Below, piece after piece: positions 1 through 13,494 of a DNA stretch of 45,839 bases. The stretch lies in NCBI GenBank assembly GCA_903833055.1, contig CAILDU010000099.1, positions 1-45,839 of the forward strand, written 5' to 3'. Each line of letters opens with the position of its first letter. Within the stretch, counting starts at the first letter, position 1. Under the pieces are notes generated by a model. The model was not told the DNA's origin and did not search any database. It was given only the letters and a program-made list of their open reading frames with translations. The position numbers and the translations under genes are program-made. Source of the DNA: an uncultured Verrucomicrobia subdivision 3 bacterium (GTDB lineage Bacteria > Verrucomicrobiota > Verrucomicrobiia > Limisphaerales > UBA11358).

Positions 1-1
1 C

Positions 2-202
2 CTGCTGGACGGAACTAACGGCAACCTCACCATTCCCGGCAACCTCACTTTGAACGGACGAACGGCTGTCGTCGCCGCCATCGAAAATCTTAACCGGTTT
101 TTACCGACCAAAGAAACGTTTGAGACGTTACCGATCCAAGGTGAATGGACGGCGCTTTGCAATAAAGTCTCCACGGCGCTGTTTGAAAGGGTGGTGGTAT
201 GA
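2..202 (+). CDS. C-terminal fragment of an unknown protein, first visible gene of the E1/JAB operon
   Basis: The frame is open from the left edge and ends in TGA at 200-202, giving 66 residues of C-terminus. The stop overlaps the ATG of the next gene (ATGA at 199-202), so it belongs to the same translationally coupled operon as the E1-like protein. The visible part has a glycine- and asparagine-rich start (DGTNGNLTIPGNLTLNG) followed by a probably helical tail ending in LFERVVV. I do not recognise the family. By analogy with other bacterial ubiquitin-like operons an E2-like or ubiquitin-like protein could sit here, but nothing in the fragment shows that. The 5' part lies outside the window. 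Confidence 0.6.
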   Translation: MLDGTNGNLTIPGNLTLNGRTAVVAAIENLNRFLPTKETFETLPIQGEWTALCNKVSTALFERVVV

Positions 203-531
203 AGGCGAAAGATTCATTCCAGTTGCTCGTCCAAAACCTCAGAGACTGCCCTACGCTCGAAACCACAATAACACCCAAGCTCGTGAATGAGATTTGGAAC
301 TGCTTTCGGCGGTTAGAACCTGGGCAAGGAGATGAAGTGACGCCGGCCGTGTTATTGGCGCTCATACTTTTTGACGAAGATCTCTTTGCCGAACTGTTGA
401 CGGAAACGCAACTCGACCAACTGCACATCATCGCGGGCCAAGTGATGCAGAACTACGAACTGGCCATTAAACCAAAAAACCAGGTCGGCCAGTTGTTGGC
501 TACGACCATCAAAGAAAGTGAACGTATATGA
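199..531 (+). CDS. Unknown 110-aa helical protein in the E1/JAB operon
   Basis: A 110-residue soluble protein with no signal peptide or membrane segment, predicted by eye to be mostly helical, with leucine-rich acidic stretches in the middle (LLALILFDEDLFAELL). I do not recognise the family. Its ATG overlaps the stop of the preceding gene, and its own stop overlaps the ATG of the E1-like gene (ATGA at 528-531). This strict coupling suggests the three products are made in fixed proportion and act together. It could be a partner or adaptor of the E1-like enzyme, but that is inferred from position only. Confidence 0.75.
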   Translation: MKAKDSFQLLVQNLRDCPTLETTITPKLVNEIWNCFRRLEPGQGDEVTPAVLLALILFDEDLFAELLTETQLDQLHIIAGQVMQNYELAIKPKNQVGQLLATTIKESERI

Positions 532-1190
532 ATTATATCATCGGTTGTGGGGGCGTTGGTTCGGCCATCGTCCCCTCATTCTGTCTGTTACGCGATCCCT
601 CGGAAGTGACCCTCATTGACGGAGATCGATTGGAGAAAAAGAACCTGAACCGCCAACTGTTCGATGCTGCCAACATCGGCCAAAACAAGGCGCAGGCTCT
701 TGGTCAAAAATATGGCTGTCCGTTCGTGCCAGAATGGTATGCGAAGGGGAAAGTCCGTCACTACCGTCACGATTGGCTGTTGTGTTTTGTCGACAATCAC
801 CGGACGCGCTTGGAGGTCTTGGAAGTGTGCGATGAAGTGGGCTGCCAAGCTATCTTCGCTGCTAACGAGATGCACTCGTCTGAAGCGTATTATTATCGAC
901 GGGCATGGCAAGGCACCGACCGTGATCCTCGGGTTTATTACCCGGAGATTGCCACTGACCGTAGCGATGATCCGCGCGTCGCGTCTATCGGGTGCACGGG
1001 AGAAGTGCAGGAGCGGAATCGTCAGCTGGTGTCCGCGAACTTCATGGCCGCAGCGTTAGCCGAACATCTCTACGTGCTCTGGGCGATGAAAGCTCCGCGC
1101 ATGGACAGCGAAACGGTCGAGTTGTTGCCCCACAAGTTCGCCGCAAACTTGAGCCGACTGGAAACGTATCGAGGAGGCCGCCATGAGTGA
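528..1190 (+). CDS. ThiF/MoeB/E1-like adenylyltransferase
   Basis: A 220-aa E1-like protein. Family members adenylate the C-terminus of a ubiquitin-like protein and often pass it to a cysteine. Residues 5-12 form the nucleotide-binding glycine loop (IGCGGVGS). An acidic DGD follows at 31-33, the conserved Asn-Arg of the NRQ motif at 41-43, Lys54 in GQNKA matches the ATP-contacting lysine, and Asp89 lies in CFVDN. Cys156 in SIGCTGE, just before a C-terminal helix, is the likely reactive cysteine. The protein is a single compact domain, similar in size to the ThiF-related proteins of PRTRC-type cassettes. It overlaps both neighbours, by 4 nt upstream and 8 nt downstream. No ubiquitin-like substrate is visible in the window. 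The fold is confident; the exact pathway is not. Confidence 0.9.
   Translation: MNYIIGCGGVGSAIVPSFCLLRDPSEVTLIDGDRLEKKNLNRQLFDAANIGQNKAQALGQKYGCPFVPEWYAKGKVRHYRHDWLLCFVDNHRTRLEVLEVCDEVGCQAIFAANEMHSSEAYYYRRAWQGTDRDPRVYYPEIATDRSDDPRVASIGCTGEVQERNRQLVSANFMAAALAEHLYVLWAMKAPRMDSETVELLPHKFAANLSRLETYRGGRHE
1171..1177 (+). promoter_or_regulatory. Strong Shine-Dalgarno site for the 201-aa gene
   Basis: GAGGAGG lies 5 nt before the ATG at 1183, inside the end of the E1-like gene. It supports the ATG at 1183 as a real start even though it precedes the upstream stop (1188-1190). Several other starts in this window show no obvious Shine-Dalgarno sequence, so this one is notable. Confidence 0.7.
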
Positions 1191-1788
1191 GAATGCAACA
1201 TTGGCACCGGAACGGAAGTGCGCCATCGATCAAGTGTTCGACGCCAGCTTCATCGAGTTGCTGGAACTGGTTCCCACAAACCCATTCGTTCGTGCTTGGG
1301 TTTTGAAGTTCACCGGAAAACTGCCGCCCGAAGATTGCGTGACGTTTAACCTGCTAAAGGATTGGGTCGAGTTCAATTGCGTGAAACGGACCAGACCCAA
1401 ACCTCAAAGCAGCCCACAAGCAGATGACGGTATTGGCATCTTGGTTCACTTCTCTGAAACCGAATATGGCAGGGCAAATTATTCGGTGGATCGGTCAGGC
1501 GAAGACACGTTTCAGATCGGTCAGGAGGAATTGTTGTCACTGGTTCAGGAAGCAATTGATGCGGGTGGTGGTTTAACGGAAGTGGTTGATCAAATCGGAA
1601 CCCGAATTGATGACGATGCTTGGAATGAATGTGAACCCAACATGGATTCTTATGGGGATTACGAATATGACGAGCATGACAGCAACGACTCTGGGAACGG
1701 CGAAATCACCTATTCACGCGAACAAATCCAGTCTCGGGTATTGGCATTTCTGCAAAACCATCACCCCGAACTAGCCCAACAACTCTGA
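1183..1788 (+). CDS. Unknown 201-aa acidic protein between the E1-like and JAB genes
   Basis: A soluble 201-residue protein. Residues 1-70 look like a small helical and strand domain. A Pro/Ser/Gln linker follows, then a possible alpha/beta unit around 85-135 (GILVHFSETEYGRANYSVD, then helical LLSLVQEAIDAGGG). Next comes a very acidic stretch rich in Asp, Glu and Tyr at about 140-172, and a final helix. I do not recognise the family. It overlaps the E1-like gene by 8 nt and is followed after 10 nt by the JAB gene, so it is probably a fixed component of the same system. It might be a modifier, target or adaptor; the sequence does not decide this. Confidence 0.8.
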   Translation: MSENATLAPERKCAIDQVFDASFIELLELVPTNPFVRAWVLKFTGKLPPEDCVTFNLLKDWVEFNCVKRTRPKPQSSPQADDGIGILVHFSETEYGRANYSVDRSGEDTFQIGQEELLSLVQEAIDAGGGLTEVVDQIGTRIDDDAWNECEPNMDSYGDYEYDEHDSNDSGNGEITYSREQIQSRVLAFLQNHHPELAQQL

Positions 1789-1798
1789 AAGGAAAACC

Positions 1799-2344
1799 AT
1801 GAAATTGATTAAATTGAAACAAGAAAAGCTGGTGGAAGAAAAAGCGGTCACTGGTTTAGTTGCTACAAAGATCGAGTATGCGGTAGAAGAAGCGAAGGGG
1901 AAATTGGAATACACTGGACCAAAACTCGATCCTGAACTCTGGCATCAAATCCTGTCGTTCTTTCGGTGGACGTATAAAGAGCATCAAAGCGAATGTCAGG
2001 TCAGGCTCTACGTTAATGTGAAGCTGGGACGTTGGGCTGCTTGGGCATTTCCTCAAGCTGCTAAAACTGGAATGACGGCGAGAGAACTACCGGAACAGGA
2101 ATCGGAGGAAAAGGCTAGGGAACGTTTTGCGGTTTGGGAATCGGAGCCTAGTGATGATTGGCTGTATTTTGGGACTGTGCATCATCATTGTTCCGCCAGC
2201 GCCTTCCAATCCTCGATTTCATTCGCCTGCGTATGCACCGCGCCTGCCAATTGCTCGACACCACCGACCAGAGCGTCAAAGCCATCGCCACGCAACTCGG
2301 TTATGCCGACCCGCTTTATTTTTCAAGGCTGTTTCGCGCGGTGA
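1799..2344 (+). pseudogene. JAB/JAMM metalloprotease, broken inside the active-site motif
   Basis: Residues 1-138 look like a prokaryotic JAB (Mov34/MPN) isopeptidase, the class that removes ubiquitin-like tags. There is a conserved-looking ECQVRLYVN strand with Glu65 as a candidate JAMM glutamate, then FGTVHHHCSASAFQS at about 124-138. This gives the zinc ligands His128 and His130 and Ser138 of the HxHx7SxxD motif. The Asp expected at 141 is missing because the sequence after about nt 2210 is no longer JAB-like. The remaining 43 residues (SISFACVC onward, stop at 2342-2344) are an out-of-frame reading of an AraC-type gene. The product would lack a metal ligand and the C-terminal half of the domain, so it should be inactive. 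A weak AAAGG site precedes the ATG. It ends the operon that contains the E1-like gene. Confidence 0.8.
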
Positions 2345-2388
2345 ACGAGAAATCACCCGTCGACTATCGCAAATTGCATAAAGGATAG
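2209..2388 (+). pseudogene. AraC/XylS-type regulator, C-terminal DNA-binding fragment
   Basis: In the frame that ends at 2388, translation from about 2209 gives the second helix-turn-helix of an AraC-family regulator: IRLRMHRACQLLDTTDQS, then VKAIATQLGYADPLYFSRLF and a C-terminal SPVDYRK. This is the textbook end of the family, about 58 residues. The first helix-turn-helix and the ligand-binding domain are absent. The upstream part of this frame is a shadow of the JAB gene, so the fragment has no start of its own. It is the 3' remnant of a regulator gene joined to the truncated JAB gene. Confidence 0.85.
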
Positions 2389-2670: not shown

Positions 2671-5600
2671 TTACGGATAGACCAGTTGGTAGAATTCCGT
2701 GGGCAACGCCGGATCCATTGTGATGTTGGTCGTGTTGACACTCTGCGAACCGGCGACGGTCATCCAGTCGGTCGGATTCGAACTGATGCCCGCTGCGAGA
2801 TTGTTGGTCTGCACAATCAAGCGCCAGCCGGTGTGATCCGCCGGCCACGTCATCGTCAGCACATTGCCGGAAACGCTGGTCGTGATGTTTGTCGGCGTGG
2901 TGTTGACGGTCGCAACTACGGTGATGCTGCCGTTGATTGAATTGCTCCAACCCAATCCACTCGGCAAGGTCGGCAGGTTGGTGACGGCATACGCGCCGCT
3001 GGTAGAACCGCCGATGCTTAATAGCTGGAAGGTATCGCCAGCCGCCAGCACCGTCGCGTCCGAGGTGATGTTGGTGACGGTCAAAGTGCCGCCGTAAGTT
3101 GTGTTGCCGCTCACGACCACTTGATCATTCACTGGCGTGCCGCCGGTTTTGTTGATGCGCAAAGTTGCACCACCTTGCAACGTCAGATTGCCGCTGACGG
3201 TGAGACTGCCAACCGTGGCTCCGGCATCGCCCGCACCGATTTTACCCGCCGGTGCGACCACCACTGAACCAGCGACGCTGCCGATACCGGCGAGTGTGCC
3301 GTTGGTCACCATCGTGGTTCCAGTGAAAGTGTTAGCTCCATCTAAGTAGAGTGTGCCCGTGCCATACTTGGTCAAGCCGCCGCCAGTGCCGCCATCCAGT
3401 AGCGACTGACTAATCACAATACTGTTTGTTCCAGAATCAATTTTGGCACCGCCAACCATGACGGTAGCCGCCGTCAAGTTCGACATAAACGGATTCGCCG
3501 GATTGGTCGCCTGCAACAGACCACCGTTGAGGTAAAGGTTGGCGCTAATACCAGTGGAGGAAGTGACGTTGACGGTCGTCAGCGTGCCGGCGTTCAGATA
3601 GTAAGTGCCGGTGGAACCCGCAAGGCGCGAAATGTTGACGCCGCCCATGGCATTCACCTGACCACCGTTCTGATTGAACGTGCCGGTGCCCGTGCCGCCG
3701 ACGCGGATACCCGCCGCCGCCGTCAAGGTGCCGCCGCTCAAGTTATAGATACCCGAACCCGAAGCCGAAGCGCGTCCACCGATGGCGAACGAGCCGACTG
3801 TTGAACTGGTTTGCGTCACTGTGCCACCGGTCTGATTGACCGTGCCGCTGGCTGTGGAACCAGTGTTGTTCGCCGAAGCGACAAAGAAGTTCGCCATGGT
3901 CAACGATGCGCTGTCCTTCACATTCAGAACACCAATCGCGTTGCCGATGTCACCGATGTTAAAATCAAAGGTCGTAGCCAAAGAGCCCGTGCCATTGAGT
4001 GTGAGCGTGGCGTTGTCATTCGTCGTCTGACCGATGCTGACCCACGTGCCAATGTTATTCGCGGAGCCACCATTCGTAATAATGATTGTGCCCGCATTCG
4101 CAAACAGGTTGCCCGAGAAGGTATTCGCCCCACTCAAGGTAAGCGTGTTAGTGCCGGTCTTGACGAGCGCGAGTGTGCCCGCCGTGTTCTTGATTGAACC
4201 GGAGAAGACGGTGTTGTTCGTATTGAAATTATTGACGGTCAACGTCGGCGTGCCACCAGCGACGGTGTCAATGATACCGGAGCCGGACAAATTGTTCATC
4301 GTGTCGCTGAAGGTGTTCAAATCAATCGTGCCATTGTTCGTCACGTTGCCGTTGCCTGCGCCGCCGGGAATCATATTAGCCGCACCCATCTTGAGCGTGC
4401 CCGCGCTGACGGTGGTGTTGCCGGTGTAAGTGGAAGCGGCGAGGTTCAGCGCGACCGAGCCAGCACCTTGCTTGAGCAAGCTGGTCGTGCCCGCGATATG
4501 ACCGCTGCCGGAGAAGGTGTAGCTCGAGAACGCATTGCTAATCGTCACGTTGGCCGGACTGACGGTTGTATTCAATGTCACCGAGCTGCTGCCGGAATCG
4601 TTGAAGGTCACCGCGTCACCCGGCGTTACCGGTTGCAGGTAAGCTGTGGGTGCTCCGAGAATCGTCCAGTTCGTGCTGGTGGTAATGTCCCACAGGTTCG
4701 GATTAATCGGACTGGTGCCAGTCCACACGATGCCTCCGCCCGTCGAAGTAATCACCGCATAGATAGTTGATGTGCTAACACTGTTGGACACCACGGCGGT
4801 AACTCCGCGCGGCGCGATAATAGTCGAGTTAAAACTACCTGAGCCCGCAATCGCGCCCGTGTAGTGAATCAACGGAACCACGCCGACGCTAAAGCCGCCA
4901 GCGAGCGTGATGGAGCTTGTGCCGTTCAAGGTCAACGTGCCGCAGTTAAGTAACGTGGGCGACGCATTGCCATTCGCCAACGCCAGATTCAACGTCGCGC
5001 CCGTTCCTGACGTGAGGCCGAGCGTGAGATTGCCGACGAGATTCGTAGCCGTGCCGACCTGGGTGAGACTCCATGAAGTGCCGTTGTTAAACGTCACGTT
5101 GCCGCCGATTTGCGAAGCGGTGGTCATCACCAAACTACCCGCATTAATCACCGCCGCGCCGGCGTAAGTGCTTGCACTGTTCAGCGTGAGTGTGCCGCCA
5201 TTATTGGTAATTGATCCGGTGAAGGTATTCACGCCGGACAATGTTAAAGTGCCAGAACCATTCCGAGTCAAGCCGCCGTCCGCCGTGGCACCTAATGTTG
5301 AATCGTGCGTCAACGCCTGACCGATAGTGATGGCAAATCCGCCGTCATCAATCGTTGCGCCGTTGGTCGAGACCAGCGCCGCACTCAAGCCGGTCATGAG
5401 AGTGGTGGTGGCTTTGGCCGCCTTCAACGTGCCGCCGTTGAAGTAGAAATTGCCGGTGCCGCCAGCGCGCGAAATTTGATTCGCCGTCAGCGTGCCGCCA
5501 TTCAAATTGTAAGTGAAGACGCCGGTTGAAGTGGTCGCTTTACCCAGATAAAGAATGCCCGTGCCACTCGCCGTTGTCGTGCCCGCATCACTGTAGAATG

Positions 5601-8600
5601 TGACGGTGCCACCATTCTGAACGAACGTGCCACTCGTGGCGTTATTGTTCGCCCCGAGCGCAATGAAGTTGTTATTCCAAATGTTGATCGCCGACGAACC
5701 GCTTACGTTGACCGTGCCCGAAGCGCCGGCAAAATTGCCAACTTCCATCTGCTGGCTTTCCACATTGAGGATACCGCCACTCATATTGAAAGTGCCCACA
5801 CCGCCGCTGGTGCCGCCGGAACCGACCGTGAACCATTGCAGCGAGTTAATCGTGCCGCCGCTCTGATTGAGAGTGCCGGTGCCGGGCGTAGAATTGTTGG
5901 CCGAGATACCGGCGATGATGACGCGGTTAGCATTCACCACACCATTGGAAACATTGAGCGCGGCGACTTGTCCGCTGTTGGGCGCGATTTCAATGTTATT
6001 GGCTGTATTACCGAATTGACCATTGGCCACGGCCAGCGTGCCGCCCGCAACGGTCGTCAAGGCGTTGTAAGAATTGACGTTGGTCAAGGTCAACGTGCCG
6101 TTGTCCGTCTTGGTCAAAATACCTGTGCCGGAAAGCACGCCACCCAATTGCACCGTCGCGCCCGCAACAACATCAATCGTTGAATTGGCATTGACCGCCA
6201 CCGCGCGCGTGCCCGCCGTGTTGGCGGCGTATTGCATCGTGCCGCTGTTCAACGTCAGCGCGCTGGAGTTGGCCCCGAGGCCATTGTCGTTGGTCACAAT
6301 CAATGTGCCGGCGTTAATGGCCGTGCCACCGGTGTAACTGTTACTCGTGCCGAGGAACAGCGAGCCGGAATTGTTCATCACCAAAGCACCAGCGCCCGCA
6401 ATCGAGCCCGGACCGGTGAAGCTGTAAGGATAGGTGCTATTCACCGTCAGCGTTGACGGATGCAGCGTGGTGGTCAAGTTGACATTGGTGAAACCCGGGA
6501 CCAGTGAGTCATCGAATGTCACGAGATCACCAAAGGTATTACCGGAATATTCGTGATAGTAATTATCGCCACCCACCCAGTTGGGGGACGTGTTGATATC
6601 CCAATTGGTTAAGCTGCCACCAACTCCAAACCCACCATACCAAGTCAAGGACTGCCCGATGAGAGTGACAACGAGGTCAACCGACGGCGGCGTGGCCGTA
6701 GCGTTGTTGCTCAAGTAACCCGAGACGCCCGGCGGCAGAGTTCCGATTTTGAAATCGTTGGTGAAGTTTTGATCCGTCAACGGCGTGCCGCTGTAGGAAA
6801 TCAGCGGGAACTGGCCGAGCACAAATCCAGAGCCGGTCAGGTTGATAAGGTTGGTTCCCGAAGAAACCAAGTTGCCGCTCGCAGTAATGGCGGTGAAGCT
6901 CGGATTGCCGCCCAACGAACCATAAGCGAAGGTCACCGCGCCATTGGTCAGCAACGTCACGTCGGCTGGCGAATAAGGTTGGCCGCTAGTAGCGTCGAGC
7001 GCCAGTGTTCCGTTGCTCACGATCAGGCTGCCCACCGTGCTCAAGGTCTGGTAATTCCAATTTAAAGTTCCACCCAACACCTTCGTTGCGTTGGTATAAG
7101 TGCTACCGTCGCTGCCGTAAGTGTTGCCATTGCCCAAGGTCAAGGTGCCGGAACCCACCTTGGTCAAGCCACCTACTATGTTTGGCACCAGCACCGGCGT
7201 GTCAATGACTGCGCCGCTGCCGCCGCCACCGATGATGGTCACGCCCAAGGTGTCGCCGCTGCCGTAACCCTGACCTGGGCAAGTCACCGTCAGGCTGGTA
7301 ATCACGCCGCCGGAAATGTTGGCCACCGCCGTCGCGCCACTGCCGCTGGCACTGATGTTGGTAATCGTCACAATCGGTGTTTCAAGGTAGCCCGAACCGC
7401 CGTTCAATACAGCAATTGTGGACACGCCGTAGCCAGCGGGCGCTTGCAATGTCTGCGGGATGGTGATGGCGAAGCCGCCGGAGTCAATGACCGCGCCACC
7501 GCCGTAAACAAAGGCCGCGTTCAAGCCGTTGACGAAGGCGTTGGTCGCAACATTCGCCTTGAGGATGCCGCCGTTGAAATTCAACGTGCCGCTGCCCGTG
7601 CCTTTGGCAACGGAATTCACAGTCGTTGTTCCGCCAAGAAGATTTACGGTTCCGTTCGCAGCCGCATTGGCTTTGCCAAGAATCAATCCGCTGCTGGCAA
7701 TGTTTAACGCGGCACTGCCAAACATATTTAACGTGCCGGTGCCAATTTCAGGCACCCACACGCCGTTGCCAGCGCCGGTCACGTTGAACACGGCTGTGCC
7801 GCTCAGATTCATGACGCCAATGGTGGTCGTGGCATTGTATCCCATGGTTACAGACGCACCACCGGTCAGGGTAAAGGTTCCGCCGCTCTGGTTAAAGACA
7901 CCGCCCTTTGACGTGCCACCCACGGCCAAGAATCCACCCACCGTCGTCGCGCCGCCGCCCTGGCTGTAACCACCAAATCCGGTCGGACCAACCGCGAGCT
8001 GACGGTTCACGGCGAGGATGCCTGAACTCATCTGAACATCTCCGATGGCTCCGGCATTGGCACTAACATTTAAACTAGAATTATACGGCTGGCCGCCATT
8101 GAAATTCGCCTGCAGGTTGCCGCCCGCGATATTCAGAATCGCATTGCCTACTGCGCTGCCAAGGGTATCTATGGCGGTGTTGGTAATGCCGCCGGTAAGA
8201 CTCATTGTGCTGGCGTTAATGGTCAATGAAGACGAATTATTGAGCGCGCCAGAAACGGTCACGCTGCCGCCGCTCACGGTCGTTGCGCCGCTATAAGTGT
8301 CGATACCCGAAAGCGTCAATGTGCCATTGCCCGTTTTGGTCAGCGCGCCGGCGCCGACAATCGCCCCGCTGATGATAGCGTTAGACGTGCCGCTCACGGT
8401 GAGCAGATTACCACCGTTGGTAACGGCCTGACTGAAAATCAAATCGCCGGACGCCGCGTTGAACGTCTGCGCCGCCGCCATGGCGATGGGCACATTCATC
8501 GTCTGCGGGTTTGCGGAATTATTCGTCACCCCGCTGCCGGTCAGCGTCAGATAATTGCCACTGGCCGAGCTATTCGTAAAGCTGCTCGCGCCACTGTTGA

Positions 8601-11600
8601 ACGTCACACCCGTGACGGTAAAATTTGTATTCACATTGGGGAACAATCGCGTCGCTCCAGCAAAACTCACGCTGTCGCCTGCGAGCGCCGGACCCGCGCC
8701 GCTGAGCCAGTTGGGATTACTCGTCCAATTGTTATCCGCACCACTGCCATTCCACGTTTGATTGGCGACCGTGACCGTCAACGGAATGGAAACTACCGCA
8801 AAGAAACCATTCGCGTCCGTGACCGTGGCGGTAAAGGTTTTGGCACCAACCGGCGTGGTGGTGCTCACTGTCACCGTGTTGGTGTAGTTCGTGCCCGTCG
8901 CATCCGGGAACAGCGCCAAGGCGGATGAACCACCGACCGCGCTGGTGTCCACGACCGCCGTGCTGATGGCATAAGTTCCCACCGTCACCGCGACGCTGAT
9001 GTTCACGTTTTGATTGCGAGTCACTGGCGTGGTAGCGACACCAACCGCAGCCGGTGCGGTCAGACTTGCATCATAGTGAAGTGAAACTGTATTCGCCGCT
9101 GTCACAATGCGGAAATGTGTCGAGTTGGTCGGCACCACATCCCAGACCGGCGCGAAGGCGACATTGCTCGCGATGATGCCCGCCACGCTGAAGAGCACAT
9201 AGTCCGCTGTTTGATCCAAGCCAACCGATGTGCTTGGCGCCTTGATGTGAATCAAATTAAAATTGTTCGTCAGATTGCCCGCCACGGTGAACTTGTCATT
9301 CACGCCCGCCGCCGTGGTTCCCAAATCAAAATAGACCGCTGCGCCCGGAGTCAACGTCAGATTGTTGGCGAAGGTGCCAGTGCCGTAAGTGCCGTCCGTG
9401 CCTGCGTAAAGTTTTGCGCCGTTCGTCACGGTCACCGAGCCAACGACCGAGCCGCTGGAGAGCAAAGTTTGGCTGCCACTCAAAGTGTAAGTGATGGCCG
9501 AAACATCCATCGCCGCGCCGCTACCGATAGTGATGGTCGGAGAAGTTCCAAATGAACCAACGCCGCTCAATGCCAGCGTGCCAGCACTAATGATGGTGTT
9601 ACCACTGTAAGAATTCGCGCTGGTGAATTTCAAAATGCCGCCGCCCGTTTTGGTCAGGCTGTTGGTATTGCTGATGACGCCGGAAAGCGTGAGCGTATCG
9701 CCCGTGTTCACGCCAAAGCTACCCGCGCTGGCAAGGGTGAAATTGTTGACCACGATGTAGCTGTTGCCGGGATTGTTAATCACCGAGCCGCCGTTCATCG
9801 TCACCAATCCGGTGCCGAAAGCGTTCGCGTTGCCAACGACAATCGTGCCAGCATTGTTGGTTACGCCAGCGGTAAAGTTGTTGGCACCGGAGAGCAACAT
9901 CGTGCCACCACCAGCTTTGGTAATGGTAGTTCCCGCGCCAGTAATGGCCGCCGAAAACAACAGGTCTATGCCACTCGGCGTTGTGCCGCTGGCGACGTTA
10001 AAAGTTTCGTTAACATTGGCATTGCCACTGCGCAAATCCACACGACCGGCGACAACTGAAGTAATCGCGCTGGGCAGTGAGTTAATGCCGCTAGCCCCGT
10101 TGTTGGCGGCAGTGTCCTGCCCCAGCACCCATAAGCTGGCGGCGGCAGCGGCGCTAGTTCCGCCATTGGAGGTTAAAGACCCGCCGGTTAAATTGAAAGT
10201 AGTGTTGAAGGCATGGTCGCCGGCTGGAGATGTGGCACTTAACGTGCCACCATTGACATCCACGATGTTCACTCTAGCGCCTGCGGCATAACCAAACTCA
10301 TTTGTGCCAGCGCACAAAACCGTTGCTCCGGGATTGACAGTAAGCGTTCCACGGATAGTTCCCACCCCGTTGAGCGCGCCGCTGATTGGTGCAAGGCCAT
10401 AAAGTCCCAGCGTGCCTCCATTTACCACCGTGCCGCCAGTGTAAGTGTTGTGATTTTGCAAGTCCACTTGACCAGGGCCATCCTTAATCAAGGTCGTGGG
10501 AACTGACCCATTTATGATGATGGGCCAAATACGGCTGTCGGTAGAACCGGTATTGGGAGTGTGAATATAAAATTCACCTGTCGCCAAACCTGAAGCCAAA
10601 AAGCAAGTGGTTGCTACATTGCCGCTACTGATTGCTTGCAGCCAATAACTGGCACCACGCGAGATAAAACCACCGCTGGCAAGAGTCAGCGTTGTCCCAG
10701 TATCCATGATCAAGTCTTTGCCATCAATCACCAAGGAGTTGATGGTGGTGCTAGCTGTAAGATGCGTGCCGGTGGCATTGTGTTTCCAGTTTTGGGTGGC
10801 CGTGCCGGTGGCCAGAGCTGCGGTTGGTGAAATGTTGTAGGCCGTATAATTGGTGACGTTGCCACTGCCATCAACGGCGGCAAAATCACCCGAGGTCGTA
10901 GAACTAACCGTGTTACTCACAGTCGCCCAGCCACCGAGAATGCCGTTCACGTTGGGGCTGGTCGTAGTGATTGCGCCGCCAGTCGGCCTTGTGAAATCCA
11001 CCGTGCCGCCGACACTTTGGGTAATCGCGCCCAATGCCAGCGTCAGCGCACCCGAAGTCACCTGCGTGCCAATAACTTTTGCAAATCCGGGGTTGACGAT
11101 GGTGTTAGAAAAAGTCTGCGCCGTCGTCGTCGCGCTCTTTTGTTTGACTTGAAACGTGCCCACGCCGCCGAGCACCAGCGTCGAATTGGTGCTAATCAAA
11201 TTGCTGGCCGAAGTCGCGTTAGCGAAATCTTCAATCAGAGAACCATTGTTGACGATGGTCGAACCGCTATAACCGTTGGCGTTGGCGCCATTGAGCGTCA
11301 ACGTGCCCGCGCCCGTTTTGGCGAGCGAGAGTGAGCCAGCCGAGTTCGTGATAACACCACTAAACGTGCTGGTGTTGGCGGTGGTATTATTGACGGTCAA
11401 AATCGGTGCACCGTTTGCCAAAGTAGAATCCACCGTGCCTGCGCCGCTCAAGCCAGCCACAGTTTGCCAGCGACCAACCAAATCCAAAGTGGAACCTGCG
11501 GCAATAGAAACTGCACTCGCAGGCGATACCGTGCCGGAAGCCATGAGCGTCTGCACCTGCGCCTGATTCAAAGTAGTGTTGTAAATCGAAACTTCATCAA

Positions 11601-13494
11601 TCAAACCATTCAACCCAGCCACGCCATCGCCGGTTTCACCGGCCGCACCAATCCAAACTTGACCACCACCAGCAACAGCCGCCCACTGGTCTTGACTCCA
11701 AGCATCCACCACGCCATCCACATAACTGACCTTGGTGTTATTAGTATCGCAAGTCATGACAACAAAATGCCAGTTACCATCATTGATATTCGCTGAGCCA
11801 GCTTCCCAACCGCGTCCGTAGCTAACGCCGCCAGCTTTTGAACCGCGCGTATCAAACGCGCCATTGTTCAAATGGAAAACCGTGTTCGCACCGCCGGTGT
11901 TGTTCCAAGCGCCGTTGCCTTGATACAAATAAGTGCCACCCGCCGTGGAGGTCTTGAGCCACAGCGCCATCGTCCAAGCGGTGCTGCCGCTGAACGGAAC
12001 CACGCCATTCGTCACCATCACATAGCCCGCATTCACCGTTGCCGGAATGCTCAACGCATTGCCGCCGAGGCGACCACCGCTGACAATCGTCGCCGCGCCG
12101 ATGATGCCGCCGTTCATTGCCGCACCACCGCTGCCGTCGTTGTTCACCGTGACCCCGCCACTGATGTTGTCGAACGACATATATAAAAGCGGAGTTGGAA
12201 CGGTGGCCGCACTGACGGACGGAGCAGATTCACTCACCTTGCCCGCGCTGATGGTCGTTGCGCCGTAATAGCTGTTGCCGTTATTGGAAAGTGTCAACGT
12301 GCCCGTGCCCGCCATGGTCAGACTGGCGCTGCCAGCGATGCTGCCCGTGCCGCCAAAGGAATAATTATTGGTGCCGTTGACCGTAATCGCATCCGGCAAT
12401 AACACGCCCGACAAGTTGACATTGGTATTGGCCGTGCCGTTCGTAAAGGTAACTGAGTTACCTGAATTGAAAACGACGGCGGAAGCACCATTGTTCCAAT
12501 TGGAAACCGTGCCGAGCGTCCACAAATTCGCCGAGCCGTCGCCAACCCAAGTGAGCGAACCACCAAACAACATTTGCGTCGCACTCCGCGCTACTTTGCT
12601 GATGCGGACTTCATCAATCGATCCGCTGAAAACTTCACCGGCGGCACCGCGATTTTCATTGCCGATACAAAGCGGGCCAGCTGTCGCACCTGCAGTGGTG
12701 CCGATGGCGACGGCTTGCGACCCAATCAAGTTGTCCTGCGTGACTGACGGATCAACCTTTGTCCAATAGAGTCTCACCGTCGTGCCGTCATACGTCACCG
12801 CCACATGATACCAGTTGTTCGGCTGAAACGCATGAATGCCGGTCGTCGGTATCGGTGCGGTAAAGTCCGTCCCACCGGTGATCGTCTGATAAAACTCCAA
12901 CTGGCCAGAGGCATTGATGCGAAATTGGAACGCCCGAGTTGCCGCCGAAGAGTCGGTGCAGATGATTTCTTGCGTGCCACTGGTGATGGTGGTCGGCGCA
13001 ATCATGGCTTCCAAAGTGAAAGGCGTTTGACTGCCGTTGCCTATGTTGAGCGAACTCATCAGGATGGCGTCAGCACTCACCGAACCGCTGTCGCCCTGAT
13101 AAGAGCCATTGCCGTTGCCGTCGAAAGCCAGCTCATAACCAGTGGTCGCAAAGGTAGCGGCATTACCAAAACCGGGATAGCTAGTTGCACCCAGCACCGT
13201 GGTCACCGGCGGCGGCGTGGCCGTGCCTGCGGTTTCGTTGACGCTGATGAAATTAGTGCCGGCAAAAACCGAACCGGCGGCAATGGCGGCATTGGTGCCT
13301 CCCGCCGCCTCGTTAAGATGGAGCAGAATCAACGTATTGGCATCTACCGTGTAAGGTCCGACGATGCTGGCTTTCGCTGAGGTTGGCGCAAGCAGACACG
13401 CCGACAGCAGCGCCATTCCGGCGACGCCGAGGGGGAAAAACAAGCGTGCCGGACGGCTCTGGATTTGAGGCTGGGTGAGGTTGGAGGTTTTCAT
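2671..13494 (-). CDS. Giant secreted autotransporter-associated beta-strand repeat protein with LamG-like domains
   Basis: A 3607-aa extracellular protein. Residues 1-42 are a signal peptide (basic start, hydrophobic LFFPLGVAGMALLSACLL, cleavage near AKA). Two LamG/concanavalin-like domains follow at about 50-310 and 430-650, each ending in an IDEV segment (SIDEVRISK and LIDEVSIYN). Most of the rest is dozens of degenerate autotransporter-associated repeats of the type GxGTLTLSGxNTYxG...GTL, expected to form a long beta-helix. An Ig-like segment interrupts them at about 1480-1580. The last 75 residues look like a small Ig or Fn3-type domain ending FYQLVYP. No outer-membrane beta-barrel and no PEP-CTERM tail is seen, so the mode of surface attachment is unclear. 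Composition is rich in Thr, Ser, Gly and Asn. A likely role is adhesion or glycan binding; this is inference. Confidence 0.9.
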   Translation of the reverse strand: MKTSNLTQPQIQSRPARLFFPLGVAGMALLSACLLAPTSAKASIVGPYTVDANTLILLHLNEAAGGTNAAIAAGSVFAGTNFISVNETAGTATPPPVTTVLGATSYPGFGNAATFATTGYELAFDGNGNGSYQGDSGSVSADAILMSSLNIGNGSQTPFTLEAMIAPTTITSGTQEIICTDSSAATRAFQFRINASGQLEFYQTITGGTDFTAPIPTTGIHAFQPNNWYHVAVTYDGTTVRLYWTKVDPSVTQDNLIGSQAVAIGTTAGATAGPLCIGNENRGAAGEVFSGSIDEVRISKVARSATQMLFGGSLTWVGDGSANLWTLGTVSNWNNGASAVVFNSGNSVTFTNGTANTNVNLSGVLLPDAITVNGTNNYSFGGTGSIAGSASLTMAGTGTLTLSNNGNSYYGATTISAGKVSESAPSVSAATVPTPLLYMSFDNISGGVTVNNDGSGGAAMNGGIIGAATIVSGGRLGGNALSIPATVNAGYVMVTNGVVPFSGSTAWTMALWLKTSTAGGTYLYQGNGAWNNTGGANTVFHLNNGAFDTRGSKAGGVSYGRGWEAGSANINDGNWHFVVMTCDTNNTKVSYVDGVVDAWSQDQWAAVAGGGQVWIGAAGETGDGVAGLNGLIDEVSIYNTTLNQAQVQTLMASGTVSPASAVSIAAGSTLDLVGRWQTVAGLSGAGTVDSTLANGAPILTVNNTTANTSTFSGVITNSAGSLSLAKTGAGTLTLNGANANGYSGSTIVNNGSLIEDFANATSASNLISTNSTLVLGGVGTFQVKQKSATTTAQTFSNTIVNPGFAKVIGTQVTSGALTLALGAITQSVGGTVDFTRPTGGAITTTSPNVNGILGGWATVSNTVSSTTSGDFAAVDGSGNVTNYTAYNISPTAALATGTATQNWKHNATGTHLTASTTINSLVIDGKDLIMDTGTTLTLASGGFISRGASYWLQAISSGNVATTCFLASGLATGEFYIHTPNTGSTDSRIWPIIINGSVPTTLIKDGPGQVDLQNHNTYTGGTVVNGGTLGLYGLAPISGALNGVGTIRGTLTVNPGATVLCAGTNEFGYAAGARVNIVDVNGGTLSATSPAGDHAFNTTFNLTGGSLTSNGGTSAAAAASLWVLGQDTAANNGASGINSLPSAITSVVAGRVDLRSGNANVNETFNVASGTTPSGIDLLFSAAITGAGTTITKAGGGTMLLSGANNFTAGVTNNAGTIVVGNANAFGTGLVTMNGGSVINNPGNSYIVVNNFTLASAGSFGVNTGDTLTLSGVISNTNSLTKTGGGILKFTSANSYSGNTIISAGTLALSGVGSFGTSPTITIGSGAAMDVSAITYTLSGSQTLLSSGSVVGSVTVTNGAKLYAGTDGTYGTGTFANNLTLTPGAAVYFDLGTTAAGVNDKFTVAGNLTNNFNLIHIKAPSTSVGLDQTADYVLFSVAGIIASNVAFAPVWDVVPTNSTHFRIVTAANTVSLHYDASLTAPAAVGVATTPVTRNQNVNISVAVTVGTYAISTAVVDTSAVGGSSALALFPDATGTNYTNTVTVSTTTPVGAKTFTATVTDANGFFAVVSIPLTVTVANQTWNGSGADNNWTSNPNWLSGAGPALAGDSVSFAGATRLFPNVNTNFTVTGVTFNSGASSFTNSSASGNYLTLTGSGVTNNSANPQTMNVPIAMAAAQTFNAASGDLIFSQAVTNGGNLLTVSGTSNAIISGAIVGAGALTKTGNGTLTLSGIDTYSGATTVSGGSVTVSGALNNSSSLTINASTMSLTGGITNTAIDTLGSAVGNAILNIAGGNLQANFNGGQPYNSSLNVSANAGAIGDVQMSSGILAVNRQLAVGPTGFGGYSQGGGATTVGGFLAVGGTSKGGVFNQSGGTFTLTGGASVTMGYNATTTIGVMNLSGTAVFNVTGAGNGVWVPEIGTGTLNMFGSAALNIASSGLILGKANAAANGTVNLLGGTTTVNSVAKGTGSGTLNFNGGILKANVATNAFVNGLNAAFVYGGGAVIDSGGFAITIPQTLQAPAGYGVSTIAVLNGGSGYLETPIVTITNISASGSGATAVANISGGVITSLTVTCPGQGYGSGDTLGVTIIGGGGSGAVIDTPVLVPNIVGGLTKVGSGTLTLGNGNTYGSDGSTYTNATKVLGGTLNWNYQTLSTVGSLIVSNGTLALDATSGQPYSPADVTLLTNGAVTFAYGSLGGNPSFTAITASGNLVSSGTNLINLTGSGFVLGQFPLISYSGTPLTDQNFTNDFKIGTLPPGVSGYLSNNATATPPSVDLVVTLIGQSLTWYGGFGVGGSLTNWDINTSPNWVGGDNYYHEYSGNTFGDLVTFDDSLVPGFTNVNLTTTLHPSTLTVNSTYPYSFTGPGSIAGAGALVMNNSGSLFLGTSNSYTGGTAINAGTLIVTNDNGLGANSSALTLNSGTMQYAANTAGTRAVAVNANSTIDVVAGATVQLGGVLSGTGILTKTDNGTLTLTNVNSYNALTTVAGGTLAVANGQFGNTANNIEIAPNSGQVAALNVSNGVVNANRVIIAGISANNSTPGTGTLNQSGGTINSLQWFTVGSGGTSGGVGTFNMSGGILNVESQQMEVGNFAGASGTVNVSGSSAINIWNNNFIALGANNNATSGTFVQNGGTVTFYSDAGTTTASGTGILYLGKATTSTGVFTYNLNGGTLTANQISRAGGTGNFYFNGGTLKAAKATTTLMTGLSAALVSTNGATIDDGGFAITIGQALTHDSTLGATADGGLTRNGSGTLTLSGVNTFTGSITNNGGTLTLNSASTYAGAAVINAGSLVMTTASQIGGNVTFNNGTSWSLTQVGTATNLVGNLTLGLTSGTGATLNLALANGNASPTLLNCGTLTLNGTSSITLAGGFSVGVVPLIHYTGAIAGSGSFNSTIIAPRGVTAVVSNSVSTSTIYAVITSTGGGIVWTGTSPINPNLWDITTSTNWTILGAPTAYLQPVTPGDAVTFNDSGSSSVTLNTTVSPANVTISNAFSSYTFSGSGHIAGTTSLLKQGAGSVALNLAASTYTGNTTVSAGTLKMGAANMIPGGAGNGNVTNNGTIDLNTFSDTMNNLSGSGIIDTVAGGTPTLTVNNFNTNNTVFSGSIKNTAGTLALVKTGTNTLTLSGANTFSGNLFANAGTIIITNGGSANNIGTWVSIGQTTNDNATLTLNGTGSLATTFDFNIGDIGNAIGVLNVKDSASLTMANFFVASANNTGSTASGTVNQTGGTVTQTSSTVGSFAIGGRASASGSGIYNLSGGTLTAAAGIRVGGTGTGTFNQNGGQVNAMGGVNISRLAGSTGTYYLNAGTLTTVNVTSSTGISANLYLNGGLLQATNPANPFMSNLTAATVMVGGAKIDSGTNSIVISQSLLDGGTGGGLTKYGTGTLYLDGANTFTGTTMVTNGTLAGIGSVAGSVVVAPAGKIGAGDAGATVGSLTVSGNLTLQGGATLRINKTGGTPVNDQVVVSGNTTYGGTLTVTNITSDATVLAAGDTFQLLSIGGSTSGAYAVTNLPTLPSGLGWSNSINGSITVVATVNTTPTNITTSVSGNVLTMTWPADHTGWRLIVQTNNLAAGISSNPTDWMTVAGSQSVNTTNITMDPALPTEFYQLVYP

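Follow-up and report, generated by a model that had tools for sequence, protein, structure and literature searches.

A fragment of a predicted ubiquitin-like conjugation operon at the end of a Limisphaerales contig, and its relatives on viral contigs

We analyzed the left end of a 45,839-nt contig (CAILDU010000099.1 of assembly GCA_903833055.1, forward strand) from an uncultured Verrucomicrobia subdivision 3 bacterium of the order Limisphaerales, which carries about 2.1 kb of an operon whose fuller relatives encode a ubiquitin-like protein (Ubl), an E2, a ThiF-type E1 and a JAB/JAMM protease. The window, i.e. this whole contig, is contig C99 of a 2.75-Mb assembly in 209 contigs (86% complete, 4.3% contaminated). 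We consider it probable (roughly 70%) that it holds a fragment of a dedicated operon for Ubl conjugation and deconjugation, which would act in phage infection by the mechanism proposed below. Fuller bacterial relatives have the gene order Ubl - E2 - helical - E1 - acidic - JAB ('helical' is a label from the original prediction, which was made from the sequence only), and related operons are found on many viral contigs. In the alignments the gene order, the Cys residues of the E1 and E2 catalytic columns and the JAMM motif are conserved, and the one Ubl that was modelled has a ubiquitin fold in the model. The breakage at both ends, a possible mis-assembly, the truncated JAB gene and a modifier that mostly lacks a terminal Gly had not been foreseen by the original prediction.

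The window fragment and its bacterial relatives

Five open reading frames (ORFs) lie on the + strand at the left end of the window, overlapping or 10 nt apart; the five closely packed genes described in the original prediction are thus borne out as coordinates, with gaps of at most 10 nt. The three middle genes are whole and overlapping, but the first and last ORFs are not whole genes. The first, described as the C-terminus of an unknown protein, is chimeric: nt 1-93 match contig C89 exactly, and only about nt 94-202 code for the E2. The features are as follows.

2-202, +: ORF 1 of the ORF list
1..93, no strand: outside the operon; all 93 nt recur unchanged inside a 1009-aa ORF of contig C89, which belongs to this assembly too (left join)
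94..202, +: E2-like gene, 3' end with the last ~35 residues; the fragment lacks the catalytic Cys, which is encoded further upstream
199..531, +: helical partner, 110 aa; its start overlaps the E2 stop (ATGA)
528..1190, +: ThiF-type E1, 220 aa, with candidate catalytic Cys156 (codon 993-995)
1183..1788, +: acidic partner, 201 aa
1799-2344, +: ORF 5, 181 aa
1799..2211, +: 5' part of the JAB/JAMM gene, ~137 codons with the N-domain and HxHx7S; the Asp is missing
2212..2215, no strand: right join; JAB-side matches end at 2211-2212 and AraC-side matches start at 2216
2216..2388, +: outside the operon; AraC-family regulator gene, 3' end coding for roughly 57 C-terminal residues of a 295-aa protein

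Judging from the ratios of nonsynonymous to synonymous substitution rates (dN/dS) of 0.02-0.09 against L011, the fragment is genuine coding DNA. L011 is a metagenome-assembled genome of Geobacteraceae whose ThiF is 95% identical to that of the window, and the single values are 0.092 for the helical gene (61 codons), 0.075 for ThiF, 0.076 for the acidic gene and 0.024 for JAB (against L012 and L042 the synonymous rate was often saturated). Being broken at both ends, the window copy cannot function as it stands.

The protein encoded at 528-1190 is a ThiF protein (Pfam ThiF 51.6 bits, cut-off 28.1). As the original prediction had it, the E1 is compact, a single ThiF stretch, and it has no rhodanese domain; the candidate Cys156 is invariant among the 14 ThiF sequences of alignment A18, and the aligned column is Cys in 43/43 viral ThiF sequences. 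No meaningful family was found for the four other window ORFs in Pfam, NCBIfam or PADLOC, and they were assigned through relatives. The E2 piece shares 52% identity over 44 residues with the E2 of L016 and 77% over 35 codons with that of L012, while the first ~30 residues of ORF 2-202 lack the motif SKWNxDLMRT, which is invariant in E2 alignment A7 except at one position. The E2 Cys (C153) is present in all 12 rows of alignment A15 and in 42/42 viral sequences. With Prok-E2_D the E2 of L042 scores 20.2 bits, below the cut-off of 25, and the E2 of L020, from a sister clade, scores 31.5. The helical protein is 30-55% identical to the protein in the same slot of L012, L013, L015, L016 and L042 and 84% identical to a partial copy in L011; a seven-row alignment of this 110-aa protein has five invariant columns, none of them charged. 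Across six bacterial relatives the acidic protein shows 43-95% identity.

The protease of the original prediction is a JAB by its fuller relatives (the window piece itself has no family match), but the gene breaks off after ~137 codons and runs on into the AraC end. The piece is 97% identical to residues 1-139 of the L011 JAB, which scores 16.3 bits with Prok-JAB (below cut-off); the L020 JAB scores 28.5 bits (above it). R69 and W79 are invariant across 13 JABs. A Prok-JAB search of the window's own genome gave one weak match elsewhere.

Scanning the genome_contigs collection yielded six bacterial loci, and same-genus genomes added L042, L044, L056 and L057; the same-genus genome G400 holds a contig identical to L012. 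The acidic gene, whole or in part, occurs in 6/49 genomes of the genus (the window's included). In L042 the order is a 151-aa protein, a PD-(D/E)XK nuclease, a ~112-aa protein, Ubl, E2, helical, ThiF and acidic, and after the acidic gene a whole JAB, a RadC-like protein and a DUF6573 protein. The upstream nuclease is PDDEXK_1 in L016 (94.8 bits), and the L042 nuclease is 80% identical to it. In a search of the class with the E2 profile, G405 and the window were the only matches among 384 genomes. ThiF was found in 9/387 genomes of the phylum including the window's, with operon genes at L018-L021 and other hits at L022-L025, and plasmid and phage collections gave distant ThiF only (11 and 3 records, <60% identity). 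We note that downstream of JAB in L042 (L042:10305-13445), the RadC-like JAB-fold protein and DUF6573 are followed by AbiEii and DUF6088 on the opposite strand.

Viral copies and the last residue of the modifier

Using E2 and ThiF alignments, we were able to identify viral loci L072-L079, all ordered Ubl, E2, ThiF, JAB (a viral scan with a single ThiF query had no match); tblastn detected the acidic gene in seven of these eight loci, L072 being the exception. A Ubl search with a profile hidden Markov model over L072-L285 (209 viral loci plus five of the window's own genome, identical Ubls counted once) then gave 43 distinct viral Ubls with their operons, many of the remoter ones near-copies of one another. 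The order Ubl-E2-ThiF-JAB holds in 42/43 operons (in L182 no E2 was detected), and the JAMM motif HxHx7SxxD is present in all 43. For the catalytic Cys counts given above, the window ThiF and the L016 E2 served as alignment references; a motif search had missed the ThiF Cys in many rows and the E2 motif in three.

Among 19 viral contigs with a ThiF of at least 46% identity in one scan, 15 measure 51-60 kb. RecT, exonuclease and helicase genes neighbour the operon in L076, L077 and L078, and of two contigs inspected L156 carries a large terminase (3.2e-7) and L155 a 54% homologue of it. We call these contigs phage because of their IMG/VR classing together with the recombination and terminase genes. 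These loci, together with L012, L013 and L042, retain the part upstream of the window fragment and have E2 and Ubl in conserved order, in agreement with the original prediction of ubiquitin-like conjugation; the presence of many relatives on viral contigs also suits its suggestion of a poorly described variant, perhaps on a mobile island. A ThiF tree does not settle whether the bacterial copies nest within the viral set (71/99 on the bacterial side, 2 changes for the viral group). In the Bacillus phage vB_BauM_KLEB27-3 (L029:4458-6708) a ThiF gene adjoins a gene with a PRTRC_A domain, an E1/JAB pair of a different kind.

Glycine is generally regarded as the terminal residue of conjugated ubiquitin-fold modifiers. 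Here the position of the expected Gly is Ala in 43/49 Ubls (6/6 bacterial and 37/43 viral), and it is Gly in 5/5 Ubls of the sister clade. With ThiS, one sister-clade Ubl reaches 20.9 bits against a cut-off of 22.5. Searching PDB sequences with the Ubl and E2 profiles gave no match for one and three weak, unrelated matches for the other. Two viral operons (L232 and L233) have tandem Ubl domains, each unit ending in Lys-Ala, like a small polyubiquitin, and the viral Ubls of L176, L229, L228, L210 and L174 end in Lys-Gln, Lys-Asn or Lys-Glu plus 0-2 residues.

Joins, proposed role and relation to known systems

Both joins of the fragment lie inside genes, and no element ends are seen. The window and C89 share the 93 nt at 100% identity and diverge past them. 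At the other end, DNA homology to the JAB genes of L011, L012 and L014 stops at nt 2208-2211, between HxHx7S and the motif Asp, and the sequence then passes, in a different frame, into the 3' end of an AraC-type gene (HTH_18, 49.1 bits; 295-aa AraC genes are whole in L045, L046 and L047 of the same genus). Searches of the rest of the window's assembly turned up neither the missing part of JAB nor an orthologous 5' part of the AraC gene. Eleven bacterial contigs have genes of the clade (window, L011, L012, L013, L014, L015, L016, L042, L044, L056 and L057), and six of them (L011, L014, L015, L016, L044 and L056) terminate within these genes, so the region seems hard to assemble. We find it somewhat more likely that the fragment is an assembly chimera, foreign to the window's genome and hence uninformative about its organism, than that it is a true remnant. 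On the side of a remnant, related operon DNA occurs in other genomes of the genus (five besides the window's; three in a separate search), and L057, as assembled, has a fragment within its contig. That fragment (L057:11607-12178) consists of a ~120-aa gene, also present near the L012 operon, followed by just 48 residues of the acidic gene, and is decayed or mis-joined. Beyond the joins, the window encodes a single 3607-aa ORF at 2671-13494 on the - strand, repeat-rich and secreted-looking by eye; C89 at the left join and the surroundings of the L057 fragment also have long ORFs of this appearance, which may favour mis-assembly.

For the intact operon we propose that JAB would cut the Ubl precursor after the conserved Lys72-Ala73, removing its variable tail, that E1 would adenylate the exposed terminal Ala and then carry the Ubl on Cys156, and that the Ubl would be handed to Cys153 of E2 and thence to lysines of target proteins. 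JAB may also remove attached Ubl, and the acidic and helical proteins could be adaptors or target selectors, which is a guess. Host or phage proteins would be modified in this way during infection, in host take-over or counter-defence, and the bacterial copies in the host genus would be horizontally acquired, partly decayed relatives. A role in infection seems most likely because many relatives are viral and some sit beside recombination or replication genes; we rank take-over or counter-defence ahead of defence with modest confidence.

Several points weigh against this proposal. The conjugate, its target, the activities and the trimming are predictions from sequence. No invariant His follows E2 C153 in A15, nor the Cys of three sister-clade E2s. 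The E2s of L015 and L016 and the L016 Ubl have no meaningful family match, and the viral proteins stay under the Pfam cut-offs: three E2s gave 14.9 bits, 16.7 bits or nothing (cut-off 25), two JABs 12.5 bits or nothing, and two Ubls 13.8 bits with ThiS or nothing. Six of the 43 viral Ubls lack Ala73 (Asn in two, Gln in two, Glu in one, Gly in one), with the E1 and E2 Cys kept. The Ubls of the two clades matched in hhalign with a probability of 4.5%, which tells against a close relation, although their C-terminal frames do align. The helical gene was found by tblastn in none of L072-L079. With the Pfam terminase PF03237, 2/8 of these loci gave weak matches and 0/8 a match above cut-off, and virion genes were seen on two contigs. 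Finally, the mostly viral distribution is partly a matter of sampling, since five scans covered the viral collection and one covered genome_contigs.

The main competing role is host defence of a Bil- or CBASS-like kind, in which the operon would tag phage proteins or arm a defence and the viral copies would be temperate-phage cargo against competitors. Matches of the E1 to PADLOC E1-E2 models (up to ~30 bits), defence or addiction genes near bacterial copies (AbiEii and DUF6088 in L042, HipA in L014) and the CRISPR-like arrays on the contigs of sister loci L019 and L021, the latter with Cas1 as well, point that way. However, 43 distinct operons are viral, some amid RecT, exonuclease and helicase genes, the single compact domain of the E1 is unlike BilD or Cap2, and no constant effector gene was recognised; we regard defence as unlikely, if the most serious competitor.

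Among described systems the nearest is type 6d of Iyer, Burroughs and Aravind (2006, PMC1779556), which that paper describes as a set of Ubl, E1, E2, a helical protein and a JAB whose N-terminus bears an extra domain. As there, Ubl, E2, E1 and JAB are separate genes with a further small partner protein, the E1 lacks a rhodanese domain, JAB lies in the same operon (whole in L042), its N-terminal part has an invariant Arg and Trp (that R69 and W79 equate to the paper's residues is our inference), and the E2 Cys is conserved (in relatives; the window fragment lacks that region). In contrast to the 6d description, the acidic gene separates E1 and JAB in the window and L042, whereas the 6d JAB directly adjoins E1; the downstream E2 His, absolutely conserved in 6d, is not invariant; the Ubl mostly ends in Ala, whereas the C-terminal Gly is highly conserved in 6d (and present in the sister clade); and many copies are on viral contigs. 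Because three tested features fail (Ubl Gly, E2 His and E1-JAB adjacency), we do not file the operon as 6d; it is best read as a largely phage-borne, Ala-ended cascade near 6d and working like it, with the sister clade as a link between them. More distant than 6d are PRTRC, Bil and CBASS.

CBASS with Cap2 and Cap3 likewise combines E1 and E2 activities with a peptidase. According to PMC10097602, the protein that it conjugates has Gly or Ala as its last residue, one or the other being conserved at 1,583 cGAS C-termini, and changing Gly to Ala lowers conjugation without abolishing it; by this precedent Ala can replace Gly in such chemistry. The same source has Cap2 joining E1 and E2 domains and a conjugated cGAS without a beta-grasp fold, unlike the present operon, where E1 and E2 are separate genes and no cGAS-like gene was recognised by eye in L042. 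BilABCD also has Ubl, E2, E1 and JAB and a precursor trimmed by the peptidase, but according to PMC11354881 BilD has two adenylation domains plus a Cys domain, and the di-Ubl BilA has a reactive Gly; the E1 here, of 220 aa with one ThiF stretch, does not belong to it.

A divergent PRTRC-type plasmid cassette with a maintenance role is very unlikely. The PRTRC cassette of Methylomonas plasmid pUP202 (L027) shares Ubl, E2, JAB and ThiF genes and a mobile setting, and curated neighbours of the E1 and JAB include PRTRC_ThiF and PRTRC_A, but the scores (ThiF 36.1 bits against the TIGR03736 cut-off of 144.75; JAB 19.9 bits against the TIGR03735 cut-off of 101.8) are far too low for membership, the L027 order differs (ParB, hypothetical, C, hypothetical, B, A, ThiF), the partners are different, and PRTRC_C of L027 ends in Gly. 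Least likely of all is a ThiS/MoaD-like sulfur carrier that ThiF would thiocarboxylate in the synthesis of a cofactor or metabolite, to which the ThiF fold and the near-cut-off ThiS score of the sister-clade Ubl would be congenial, since E2 and JAB are constant partners, ThiF/MoeB equivalog and subfamily scores are far below cut-off (41.1 of 159, 35.5 of 275.25 and 19.1 of 266 bits), and no thiamin, molybdopterin, tRNA-thiolation or other biosynthetic genes were recognised by eye beside L012, L013 and L042, an outcome that favours the original prediction over its cofactor-pathway alternative.

The sister clade and the meaning of the viral operons

In the sister clade, a reverse transcriptase (RT) gene lies directly upstream of E2 in all four loci that have DNA there (L019:11394-13376, L020:3528-5667, L021:10672-12663 and L069:1068-2906), and the three RTs scanned score 234-265 bits with the PADLOC retron model RT_XIII. 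The RT-E2 gap of 366-634 nt looks structured (z = -6.67 in L019, the one locus shuffled, with 0/100 shuffles as low), and part of it is present twice in L020; Rfam had no match on the four sister loci. No RT was found in 20 island and viral loci. Among the papers that a literature search listed, none had a retron coupled to a ubiquitin-like operon, and such a coupling would be new to us. The CRISPR-like arrays on sister-operon contigs lie at L019:2911-4282 and L021:4106-6108 (21 and 31 copies, 66-69 nt spacing), and the Cas1 of L021 scores 340.8 bits.

Among the titles and abstract beginnings listed from the open-licence literature, we found none on a phage-borne or Ala-ended Ubl/E1/E2/JAB operon, which is weak evidence of absence. 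Our tentative view, which we put at somewhat less than an even chance, is that these operons form a widespread phage ubiquitin system in which the activated C-terminal residue of a true ubiquitin-fold modifier has switched from Gly to Ala (a Lys-Ala end that the system's own JAB would trim), giving a private tag that host Gly-specific peptidases would not remove and that would serve in host take-over or disarmament; copies in bacteria would then be captured ones. A natural clade of Ala-ended Ubls beside their own E1, E2 and JAB would be a test of what these enzymes read, and dozens of viral operons raise the question whether phages tag proteins during infection.

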